This document shows positions 6,679 to 16,418 of a stretch of DNA of 64,000 nt, one piece after another. The position numbers were made by a program, and so were the translations under genes. How positions within the stretch are numbered: the first letter of the stretch is position 1; every line of letters begins with the position of its first letter. Below the pieces are notes generated by a model. The model saw only the letters and a program-made list of their open reading frames with translations, ran no database searches and was not told the origin of the DNA. Source of the DNA: Capillimicrobium parvum (lineage in GTDB: Bacteria > Actinomycetota > Thermoleophilia > Solirubrobacterales > Solirubrobacteraceae); assembly GCF_021172045.1 (NCBI RefSeq), contig NZ_CP087164.1, positions 620,001-684,000 on the forward strand. Reading direction: 5' to 3'.

Positions 6679-6752
6679 GCGCCCGTAGCTCAGCTGGATA
6701 GAGCGTCGGTCTACGGAACCGAAGGTCAGAGGTTCGAATCCTCTCGGGCGCG
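6679..6752 (+). tRNA. tRNA-Arg (ACG)
   Basis: Acceptor GCGCCCG pairs with CGGGCGC. The anticodon stem TCGGT/ACCGA carries loop CTACGGA (anticodon ACG), and the T-arm is AGAGG TTCGAAT CCTCT. The discriminator is G and the length is 74 nt. Its 3' half, from the last anticodon base onward, is duplicated exactly at 16379-16418, marking it as the attachment site of the integrated element. Confidence 0.97.
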
Positions 6753-6754
6753 CT
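6715..6754 (+). repeat. attL core (tRNA-Arg 3' half)
   Basis: Forty bases from the third anticodon base to two bases past the discriminator are identical to 16379-16418. The bases on both flanks differ (C versus T on the left, C versus A on the right), so the match is exactly 40 bp. The integrated copy leaves the tRNA intact. Confidence 0.9.
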
Positions 6755-6758
6755 CCCG

Positions 6759-6786
6759 CGAAACCCCCGCTGCGACGGGGGTTTCG
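6759..6786 (+). terminator. Hairpin downstream of tRNA-Arg
   Basis: CGAAACCCCC at 6759-6768 pairs with GGGGGTTTCG at 6777-6786 across an 8-nt loop. It lies 6 nt past the tRNA and can terminate tRNA transcription. It is self-complementary enough to work for the oncoming minus-strand integrase operon too. Confidence 0.6.
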
Positions 6787-6818
6787 CCGTTCCGGGCCGC
6801 GCTCAGGGCGCCGACGCG

Positions 6819-6842
6819 TGGCCCGATAGTGGCCCAAACGTC
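6819..6842. repeat. Left copy of a 24-bp repeat inside the element end
   Basis: A 24-bp sequence containing ATAGTGGCCCAAACGTC. It recurs with one mismatch, in the same orientation, at 16238-16261, close to the other end. It lies 65 bp inside the left core. A matched pair just inside both ends is what arm-type integrase sites look like. Confidence 0.6.
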
Positions 6843-6844
6843 GC

Positions 6845-7102
6845 TCAGGCGTCGCCCCTGCGCGCCGAGTCCTCGACCGCCTCGTACACCTCCGGGCCAA
6901 GGTCATCGCGCCGGATGACCTGCCATTCGCTGTTGGGGTTGTCGGCCCAGCTAGCGAGAGTCCGCATGGCGTAGTGCTCACCGACGCCCGCCTTCCGCGC
7001 CACCCACCACGCCGACTGAGCCATACCGTCTTCGAGCAGCGCGAGGTACAGCTTCGCGTCGTCAGTCTTCGGGTCGGCCAACCGGTCGTCATCGTCGGTC
7101 AT
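6845..7102 (-). CDS. Small acidic protein coupled to the integrase
   Basis: An 85-residue protein, ATG at 7102, whose start overlaps the integrase stop in an ATGA. The N-terminus is very acidic (MTDDDDRLADPKTDD). The middle, AWWVARKAGVGEHYAMRTLA, could fold as a short helix-turn-helix. It is the last gene before the attachment core. A role with the integrase (directionality or regulation) is possible, but no family is recognised. Confidence 0.65.
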   Translation of the reverse strand: MTDDDDRLADPKTDDAKLYLALLEDGMAQSAWWVARKAGVGEHYAMRTLASWADNPNSEWQVIRRDDLGPEVYEAVEDSARRGDA

Positions 7103-8181
7103 CGTGCCTCGTCTCGCGCGTCGCGCTCGGCGTCGAGCGCGTTCAGCCGCCCGGCGATTCCGGCCGTCGCGCCATCCAGCAGCGTGCCGTAGTGGCGCTC
7201 GACCATTTCGATGCTTGTACCCATGACGCGGGCCAACTCGAACGCGCTGACCCCGGCCGCGAGCGCGTCGGACGCGAACGTCGAGCGCAGGTCGTAGATG
7301 CGCGCCGGGCGCGGAACGCCCGCCGCGTCGATGGCCGGTGCCCACACGCGGCGGCGCCAGTTGTCGATGTTCAGCACGCCGCCCTGCGCGGCCGGGAACA
7401 CGAGCGGCGTGTCGAGGCGCGGCGGCACCGCGTCGAGCGCGGCGAGCGCCCGGTCCGACAGCGGCACCTGGCGGCGGCTGCGCTCCGTCTTGGCGAGGTC
7501 GACGACCTCGCCGCTGGGCACGGTGCGCCGCACCGTCAGGATGCCCGCCCGGCGGTCGATGTCGCGGCGTTCGAGCGCCTGCCACTCCTCGGGGCGCAGG
7601 CCGGTCGCGGCGGCGAACATGGGCAGCGGCGCGTAGGCGGGCGGCAGTTCGGCGGCGATGGCGTCGAGTTCGACGCGGGTGAACGCGCGCACCGTGCGCG
7701 GCGGCGGCTTCGGGTTGCGCCCGGCGAGCTTGGCCGGGTTGCGGGTCATGCGCTCCCAGCGGACGGCGGTGTCGAGCACCTGGCGCAACGCCTGCGCGAT
7801 GCCGTGCCCGGCCCGCGGCGGCAGGCTGTCCTGCCATCCGGCGACCTCGTGCGTCATGCGTTCGAGGTCGCGCAGCGGCACGTCACCGAACGCGCGCTCG
7901 GCGTGGTGCAGGCGGTCGCGCAGGGTGGCGACGGTCCGGGGGCGCACGGCGGCGGCGTGCCGGGTCAGGTAGACGTCGATGAACTCCGACAGGGTGACGT
8001 CGGCCACCGGGGCGGGCGCGCCGCGAAGCTGCGGCTCGATGACGTCGCGGAAGTAGGCGAGCGCCGCGCTCTTGGTCGGGAATGGCGACTTGCGGCGGCG
8101 GGCGCCGTCGGCGGCGTAGCACCGCAGGCCCCAGCGGTTCGGGCCGAGTCGGTACGCCTGGCCGCGTTGGGTGGCGGGCAT
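7099..8181 (-). CDS. int: Tyrosine-type site-specific integrase of the element
   Basis: A 360-residue phage-integrase-family recombinase starting at ATG 8181. An N-terminal arm-binding segment and a SAM-like core-binding domain (about residues 55-150) precede the catalytic domain. Visible active-site residues are the first Arg in TGLRPEEW, a Lys in KTERSRRQVPL, the YDLRSTFAS box (the usual His of HxxR is Tyr here, as in many actinobacterial integrases) and the nucleophile Tyr in ERHYGTLL. The stop lies about 345 bp from the att core in tRNA-Arg, so this enzyme very probably recombined the element there. It is co-translated with its neighbours through 1-bp and 4-bp overlaps. Confidence 0.92.
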   Translation of the reverse strand: MPATQRGQAYRLGPNRWGLRCYAADGARRRKSPFPTKSAALAYFRDVIEPQLRGAPAPVADVTLSEFIDVYLTRHAAAVRPRTVATLRDRLHHAERAFGDVPLRDLERMTHEVAGWQDSLPPRAGHGIAQALRQVLDTAVRWERMTRNPAKLAGRNPKPPPRTVRAFTRVELDAIAAELPPAYAPLPMFAAATGLRPEEWQALERRDIDRRAGILTVRRTVPSGEVVDLAKTERSRRQVPLSDRALAALDAVPPRLDTPLVFPAAQGGVLNIDNWRRRVWAPAIDAAGVPRPARIYDLRSTFASDALAAGVSAFELARVMGTSIEMVERHYGTLLDGATAGIAGRLNALDAERDARDEAR

Positions 8182-15486: not shown

Positions 15487-15693
15487 TACGGCATCCGATC
15501 GGTGTAGGAGCCTGGACGAGTTGGAGGTCCAGACACGAGGTGGAGGGCGTCGGCGGAGGACAACAGCCGAACGCCTATACCCCCCGTTCCCCCGTTGCCG
15601 CGAGGGCCACACACGACCCGGGCTATCTGTGCCCAACCTCACACCCCCGGGCACCCGACGCACCACGCGGGGCCCGGTGTGCTCTGGCATTGG

Positions 15694-15798
15694 TCAGTGC
15701 GCGGCGACCATGACGAGCGTGGCGTCGTCGCGCAGCGGCTTGGGCGACGCGTCGATGACGGCGTTCTGGATCTCACGCACCGCACGGGCGACGGTCAT
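15694..15798 (-). pseudogene. C-terminal fragment of a PP2C/SpoIIE-type phosphatase
   Basis: Thirty-four codons in one frame end in SPKPLRDDATLVMVAAH. The PLRDDATLVMV ending is the conserved last strand of PP2C-type (RsbU/SpoIIE) phosphatases, with the metal-binding Asp pair. The remainder of the ~200-residue domain is missing. It suggests chromosomal DNA captured or deleted within the element. Confidence 0.45.
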
Positions 15799-16006
15799 CG
15801 CAGCAGTACAAGACGCCCGTCATCGTCATCGGCCAAGTGGACTGACCCCGCCCGCGGAACGACTGGTAACGGACGGCGGCGGTCGGTGCCAACATTGGAA
15901 GCGCCTCAGAAACCGCTGTGTGCGGGCTGCGGGCGGTCCGGCAGCGGGATTGGCCGGATTCAGCGGCGGCGGGCGGCCCGCACGCCGCGGGCGGGTCCGT
16001 GGGCGG

Positions 16007-16201
16007 TCATGACGGTCCCCGCCAGTCAGTAGGCGTCGTGCCGCCTCGCGCTGCTCGGCCCTCGCGTTCATGAACGCGGGCCAGCGGCCCCGGTAGCAAC
16101 GCGGCGGCGTGGTGAGCGAGCAGCCGCTCGTGGACGGCTTGGCGTAGCTCGGCGGCCTTCGAGCCGGGCCTCCCGTACAGGTTCGCGTTCACCGTCACCA
16201 C
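16007..16201 (-). CDS. Possible small helical protein near the right end of the element
   Basis: A 64-residue ORF from GTG 16201 (VTVNANLYGRPGSKAAELRQ..., then a basic, Gly-rich tail). The N-terminal half is plausible protein; the tail is not. It lies between the PP2C remnant and the right end of the element. No ribosome-binding site is obvious and no family is recognised. Confidence 0.25.
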   Translation of the reverse strand: MVTVNANLYGRPGSKAAELRQAVHERLLAHHAAALLPGPLARVHEREGRAARGGTTPTDWRGPS

Positions 16202-16237
16202 GTCGATGTCCGGGCCGCCCCGCGCGGCCGTCGGCTC

Positions 16238-16261
16238 TGGCCCAATAGTGGCCCAAACGTC
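16238..16261. repeat. Right copy of the 24-bp repeat inside the element end
   Basis: It matches 6819-6842 with one mismatch (A for G at the seventh base), same orientation. It lies 118 bp inside the right core. With the left copy it is a candidate arm-type binding site for the integrase. Confidence 0.6.
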
Positions 16262-16378
16262 CCCGCGACCGTCCCCGTAGTCATCGGGGGCCACCGGCGA
16301 GAGAGGCCCGAAACGTGCGGCGTTGCAGGCGATTGTCGTCGGTCGTCGCCGACGGTCGTTTTCGTCGGCGCGGCCATT

Positions 16379-16418
16379 GGAACCGAAGGTCAGAGGTTCG
16401 AATCCTCTCGGGCGCGCT
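16379..16418 (+). repeat. attR core (orphan tRNA-Arg 3' half)
   Basis: A perfect 40-bp copy of 6715-6754. No 5' half of a tRNA precedes it, so it is not a second tRNA gene but the right attachment site. The sequence after it (GAAAGCCCCGC...) probably is what originally followed the tRNA gene. Confidence 0.9.

Follow-up and report, generated by a model that had tools for sequence, protein, structure and literature searches.

Most descriptions of phage satellites with a capsid gene of their own come from Proteobacteria, Firmicutes and Mycobacterium/Streptomyces, and few phages are known from the soil class Thermoleophilia. We analysed 64,000 nt of the thermoleophilian Capillimicrobium parvum (NZ_CP087164.1, GCF_021172045.1, forward-strand positions 620,001–684,000; hereafter the window, whose own positions are used throughout; genome label G000), in which a 9,664-bp element at tRNA-Arg(ACG) carries an integrase, an excisionase (Xis), a replication gene and a lone HK97-fold major capsid protein (MCP). 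On balance, we consider it probable that this element, integrated and probably crippled, belongs to a large class of ~9-kb capsid-carrying, satellite-like elements of Actinomycetota. The closest described systems are the candidate phage-inducible chromosomal islands (PICIs) of Mycobacterium, which combine an integrase with a capsid gene in ~10 kb and include phiRv1 (9.3 kb), phiRv2 (10.8 kb, at tRNA-Val) and phiBN42_1 (PMC10654092, PMC3986857). An MCP gene is also present in 21 of 29 reference Gram-negative PICIs (PMC10111431), and capsid genes are found in SaPIbov5 (Ccm) and PmCI172 (PMC6092414); in the capsid-forming PICIs (cf-PICIs) the capsid gene is accompanied by protease, portal, connector and terminase genes (PMC10690885). 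These published cases overturn the premise of an earlier note on this DNA, that a capsid-bearing satellite from Thermoleophilia would extend the concept: the class is known but little studied, and the element of the window is a new, probably crippled, member of it.

With the Mycobacterium candidates the element shares a size of ~10 kb, a set of integrase, xis, primase and HK97 MCP, attachment (att) repeats and, as in their tyrosine-integrase members, a tRNA site; related MCPs occur at the Mycobacterium loci L023, L026, L027 and L031, and phiRv1 and phiRv2 are likened to it by their published descriptions. It differs in belonging to another class of Actinomycetota, in its DUF892 cargo, in having no prohead protease and in its damaged primase and xis. 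Since it combines integration machinery and an MCP in a phage-like stretch short of a full prophage, it falls within the 2023 mycobacterial definition of a candidate PICI (PMC10654092). The stricter 2018 PICI criteria (PMC6092414) demand a size of ~12–15 kb and the absence of structural or lytic genes, where the element has 9,664 bp and an MCP; of the integrase, replication module and master regulator that they expect in a conserved order it holds an integrase and a broken Prim-Pol/PriCT_1 gene, its sole possible regulator being the HTH_17 excisionase-type protein; and the attachment site, which under those criteria is never used by prophages, also hosts an element resembling actinomycete integrative and conjugative elements (AICEs; L101) and the tape-measure-bearing L052. 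Because of its structural gene and its size we call it PICI-like and do not file it as a PICI, although elsewhere in the literature PICIs are allowed a capsid gene (PMC10111431). Like the lone-capsid PICIs, it has an integrase, an excision regulator, a primase, a single phage capsid gene and no packaging or tail genes, but it is 9.7 rather than 10–20 kb long, its genes are unrelated, regulator and induction are known for PICIs only, and the likeness is at most functional. With the cf-PICI EcCI2 it has in common an HK97 MCP of its own, and the two capsid folds match at Z 22.6, but it encodes that protein alone, with no protease, portal, connectors or terminases. Its nearest solved MCP is that of Mycofy1 and its nearest isolate MCPs are those of Gordonia/Mycobacterium siphophages, yet these are full phages, and the element has none of the terminase, portal and tail genes of a tailed prophage; nor did Pfam match among its open reading frames (ORFs) the FtsK/Tra-type DNA translocase and Rep of an AICE.

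The borders are clear. ARAGORN places an intact tRNA-Arg(ACG) at 6679..6753 (+), and its 3′ half, the attachment site, forms a 40-bp direct repeat (attL, 6715..6754, +; attR, 16379..16418, +) that is exact, as the earlier note had described, cannot be extended and has a chance expectation of ~6e-13; no third copy (at least 26 of 40 matches) lies within the window. The att-to-att span falls to ~8.6 kb once an IS481 insertion is subtracted. Every gene between the att copies lies on the minus strand, in the order, towards the tRNA, DUF892/ferritin-like gene, MCP, 107-aa ORF, 64-aa ORF, Prim-Pol/PriCT_1, two small ORFs, HTH_17 excisionase, IS481, a zinc-finger-like ORF, integrase and a small ORF. 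Pfam and PHROG matches bear out the integrase, excisionase-like gene, lone MCP and ferritin-like gene named from the letters alone, and scans of the element's ORFs with both resources found no terminase, portal, tail or lysis family, again as had been claimed; searches for TerL, portal and integrase inside the bounds of this and the related compact elements returned integrases alone. The suggested look for an empty site gave a tRNA-Arg without the element: in a genome of the same genus (G318) the left flank is collinear, with the upstream gene and both tRNAs (68% identity over 5189-6752), and beyond the intact tRNA-Arg comes no element but unrelated sequence, in which a VOC gene begins ~0.4 kb downstream, a comparison that covers the left flank, as the contig ends just past the site.

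The MCP (12656..14032, −; 458 aa) is intact and matches Phage_capsid (PF05065, 7.5e-22) over 279 of 280 profile positions. Its structural model (pLDDT 78.7) consists of N-terminal helices (~1-174), a low-confidence stretch (175-199) and an HK97 domain (~198-458), and the best fold matches were the heads of a gene transfer agent (GTA), phage Mycofy1 and EcCI2 (Z 22-24), with encapsulins at Z ≤19. Among solved MCPs the closest is Mycofy1 9lw6 (E 5e-52, ~32% identity; no published paper on the Mycofy1 structure entries was found), and among phage isolates Gordonia/Mycobacterium siphophages (35-39%); a scan of IMG/VR gave no relatives. In the model the N-terminal region resembles a Delta domain. 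Delta domains normally require a protease; the element encodes none, so a helper would have to supply one.

Among 399 Thermoleophilia genomes the MCP had five matches outside its own genome. The best, from the same family (G151, 42% identity), belongs to an element of 9,639 bp at tRNA-Gly whose gene order is the same as in the window element but for an added protease: MCP, then a prohead protease, a Toprim/AAA helicase-primase, HTH_17, the integrase and the tRNA. The next (G016, 37%) is part of an element of 8,608 bp at tRNA-Lys, and two further matches come from full prophages, which have portal and TerL genes and in which protease and MCP are fused. A wider scan of ~85,000 genomes gave 33 MCP loci, about half of them full phages and about half compact, with neither TerL nor portal. 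Compact loci near a tRNA are mostly bounded by repeats of the tRNA 3′ end 8.6-10.0 kb apart (att-to-att lengths of 9639, 9304, 9075, 10033, 8608, 9153, 8910, 9529, 9116, 8619 and 9492 bp, elements of the surveys below counted in, against 9664 bp for the window element); one, in Actinomadura, occupies the same tRNA-Arg(ACG), others have serine integrases, like phiRv1, and for L044 no repeat bounds were found. A protease was confirmed by Pfam in L007 only, a 200-aa ORF of L052 being protease-like by sequence; an apparent second protease in many compact loci was discarded, its query (L045_10477_11004) being the C-terminal half of an MCP. In a tree of 37 MCPs the proteins of the window, G151 and Solirubrobacter soli form one clade (support 100/99); a second (98/99) unites eight compact MCPs, whose hosts are Mycobacterium, Nocardiopsaceae, Actinomadura and another Thermoleophilia family. 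The compact/full label changes four times on the tree against 12.7 times in shuffles, none of 500 shuffles being as low, and MCP reading frames remain open across deep divergence. This clustering indicates that the compact elements are persistent lineages, though several and not one.

The C. parvum genome itself holds two more Phage_capsid loci, at tRNA-Cys and tRNA-Thr. The first (L113, G000:C1:2540137-2549709) looks intact, and spans 9,529 bp within a 44-bp repeat of the tRNA-Cys 3′ end; besides an integrase and an intact MCP (423 aa) it has an xis-like stretch, an HTH_17 protein, a protein resembling replication initiators and the anti-phage defence protein PD-T7-4 (PADLOC 2.2e-75). The second (L116, G000:C1:4949878-4954887) is decayed, 4,977 bp within a 32-bp repeat; its MCP is broken, and one gene resembles a small terminase (PHROG 3.7e-23). 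Neither the PF04860 portal nor the PF03354 TerL, the only portal and terminase families searched, occurs anywhere in the genome, so that no standard helper prophage is resident. Across 300 Thermoleophilia genomes an HK97 capsid was found in 42 and a standard portal in 15, and a portal lay within 2 kb for nine of ~51 capsid loci, the 42 portal-less loci being an upper bound given contig ends and other portal families. Compact att-bounded capsid loci were confirmed in C. parvum (two), G151, G016, G018, G093 and G260. These counts suggest that capsid-carrying satellites are common in Thermoleophilia and may outnumber portal-bearing HK97-type prophages there. A bolder proposal, which we put forward tentatively and would not yet favour, is that ~9-kb capsid-only elements are the main form of HK97-capsid carriage in the class, as old lineages with MCPs that evolve separately from those of phages and with a size kept near 9 kb by a small head of their own MCP, and that one genome may carry three of them at different tRNAs. 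Two other capsid loci (L154 in G218, L155 in G357) lie between tRNA-Arg repeats set 13.9 and 14.4 kb apart; the queries used found no TerL or portal in either, and they are possibly larger satellites.

The copy in the window carries two lesions that the earlier note had overlooked. Its prim-pol does hold Prim-Pol and PriCT_1 domains, but the gene is split by an in-frame TAG (11249-11251, −) into a 5′ part (11252..11680, −; Prim-Pol positions 1-106 of 158, PF09250 7.7e-14) and a 3′ part with the end of that domain and PriCT_1 (10508..11248, −; PF09250 1.9e-5, PF08708 6.2e-15), the stop falling between profile positions 106 and 119. With one in-frame TAG in one gene, a nonsense mutation is a simpler explanation than genetic recoding; restart at a GTG at 11236 may yield a two-chain primase. 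The second lesion is a 1,055-bp IS481-family insertion (8553..9607, −; ends from copy comparison) flanked by CTAG at 8549-8552 and 9608-9611, whose transposase ORF (8549-9550, −) matches rve_3 (1.1e-16) and LZ_Tnp_IS481. It overwrites the 3′ end of xis (9570..9764, −; 64 aa; HTH_17, Pfam 3.5e-16, PHROG excisionase 3.6e-13), leaving the last ~14 residues derived from the insertion sequence, where the relatives in L098 and L099 (74% and 65%) have a different, longer C-terminus after the common HTH. The genome holds four copies including this one, and since the other three are 99-100% identical the insertion is recent. A match of the excisionase to a small-terminase-subunit PHROG (1.3e-6) is better explained by the shared HTH. 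Together the two lesions imply that this copy probably cannot replicate and may excise badly; judged from its reading frames it is probably crippled and dying, with integrase and MCP still open.

The tyrosine integrase (7099..8181, −; 360 aa; PF00589 2.4e-7, PHROG integrase 5.8e-49) is intact, and its closest relatives lie at tRNA-Asp (70%, on a cut contig) and tRNA-Ala (67%), both in elements or contigs with no window-type MCP; the latter belongs to an island (L099) with a DUF3854/DUF3631 primase and no MCP on its 11-kb contig. The occurrence of integrase relatives in several kinds of island points to an integrase–xis module shared between them, and to the MCP as an exchangeable module. Two more distant relatives were seen: a 14.3-kb element at tRNA-Ala (L100, G259:C73) that encodes Prim-Pol, TerL and a tape-measure-like protein of 970 aa and whose integrase is 50% identical to that of the window, and an AICE-like element of 12.6 kb (L101, G234:C96) that shares the tRNA-Arg(ACG) site and has a repeat of 46 bp, a related xis and a 40% identical integrase.

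An attachment structure at a tRNA, a gene set of integrase, xis, replication gene and MCP, the lack of the packaging and tail genes searched for, and the recurrence of this anatomy in relatives are what the satellite reading is built on; from them we infer dependence on a helper, redirection of heads and past mobility. In the proposed cycle the integrase would insert the element at tRNA-Arg and, together with Xis, excise it, and the primase would drive replication of the excised circle. On infection by a helper phage, or its induction, the satellite MCP would build or redirect small heads, alone or mixed with the helper MCP, and the helper would provide the maturation protease, the portal, the terminase and the tail needed to package the small genome and move it. 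In the present copy the nonsense codon and the IS481 insertion would probably have ended replication and impaired excision. Intact relatives bring the role of a lone capsid gene in a satellite within reach of a test, among them the element at tRNA-Cys in the C. parvum genome, with its anti-phage protein.

Several points weigh against this reading. The element is known here from its genes, from which helper, induction, excision and particle would all have to follow, and with two lesions the whole unit may be dead. It has no protease of its own though its MCP retains a Delta-like region, and as the capsid gene is dispensable for transfer in Gram-negative PICIs (PMC10111431), the role of a satellite capsid gene is unsettled. 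Some AICE-like elements, such as L104 with 9,699 bp, are about as long, and little can be concluded from length by itself. On the tree, the compact MCPs of L036, L044 and L052 are placed among full-phage MCPs, and the clade of the window, G151 and S. soli is sister (87/95, not starred) to full-prophage MCPs of the same family. The 13.5-kb L052 of Phytohabitans maris, at the same tRNA-Arg(ACG), retains an MCP, the protease-like ORF and a shortened tape-measure protein; because its MCP groups with those of full phages it looks like a real prophage remnant, and relics evidently occur too. The window element might likewise be what is left of a full temperate phage that lost portal, terminase, tail and lysis genes and kept att, integrase, xis, primase and capsid by chance, and besides L052 and the sister placement, the damaged primase and xis and the TerL and tape measure of the 14.3-kb tRNA-Ala element speak for such a history. 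We nevertheless consider it unlikely, as around a dozen elements from different genera, measuring 8.6-10.0 kb between their att sites, share this gene subset, the genes they lack (TerL, portal) are precisely those adjoining the MCP in full phages, compact MCPs cluster on the tree, and a single genome has three such loci but no portal of the standard family. What the earlier note had named as the sign of a relic, a full prophage with this integrase and capsid, was not found in relatives.

More doubtful still is an AICE-like autonomous or conjugative element, or a defence island, in which the MCP would be a passenger or a dominant-negative poison of phage heads. The AICE-like element of G234, with its related integrase and xis, the MCP-less island with the 67% integrase, the dispensability of PICI capsid genes (PMC10111431) and the PD-T7-4 protein of the second element in the same genome are all compatible with it; the element's ORFs include no FtsK/Tra-like translocase, however, and a pure passenger would not explain why an MCP and its N-terminal assembly region are kept over a long evolutionary distance. 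An encapsulin-like nanocompartment, with an HK97 shell and ferritin-like cargo for iron storage inside a mobile element, is brought to mind by the adjoining shell and ferritin-like genes and by the encapsulins among the fold matches. We consider it highly improbable: PF05065 is the sole family match, with no encapsulin family, the Mycofy1, GTA and EcCI2 heads outrank encapsulins, and no other MCP locus of the family pairs with a DUF892 gene. A satellite with its own capsid, as the earlier note proposed, thus remains the best reading, its closest MCP relatives lying in compact elements, although the damage to this copy had gone unnoticed.

The ferritin-like gene itself (14467..15486, −; 339 aa; DUF892, YciE-type; Pfam 6.1e-13, with YciE relatives in the PDB) is widespread in the order, with relatives in 64 of 232 genomes (its own counted), the best of them, a full-length one, 78% identical; there were none in three genomes of the same genus and, elsewhere in its own genome, partial ones only. 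By its sequence relatives it is host-type cargo. The remaining ORFs are small, all on the minus strand: 85 aa with no assigned function (6845..7102), 94 aa and zinc-finger-like (8181..8465; a weak PF09889 match, 2.2e-4, below the cut-off), 111 and 102 aa with no family assigned by Pfam or PHROGs (9761..10096 and 10203..10511), 64 aa with no family found (11742..11936), and one of ≤107 aa (12210..12533) in the position held by the prohead protease in the nearest relative (L007). Directly right of attR, at 16690-20801, a 722-aa ORC/CDC6-like AAA protein is encoded where GC content is lower (59-61%), followed by two adjoining minus-strand ORFs that resemble in sequence pieces of a broken tyrosine recombinase; this region is probably another degenerate island.

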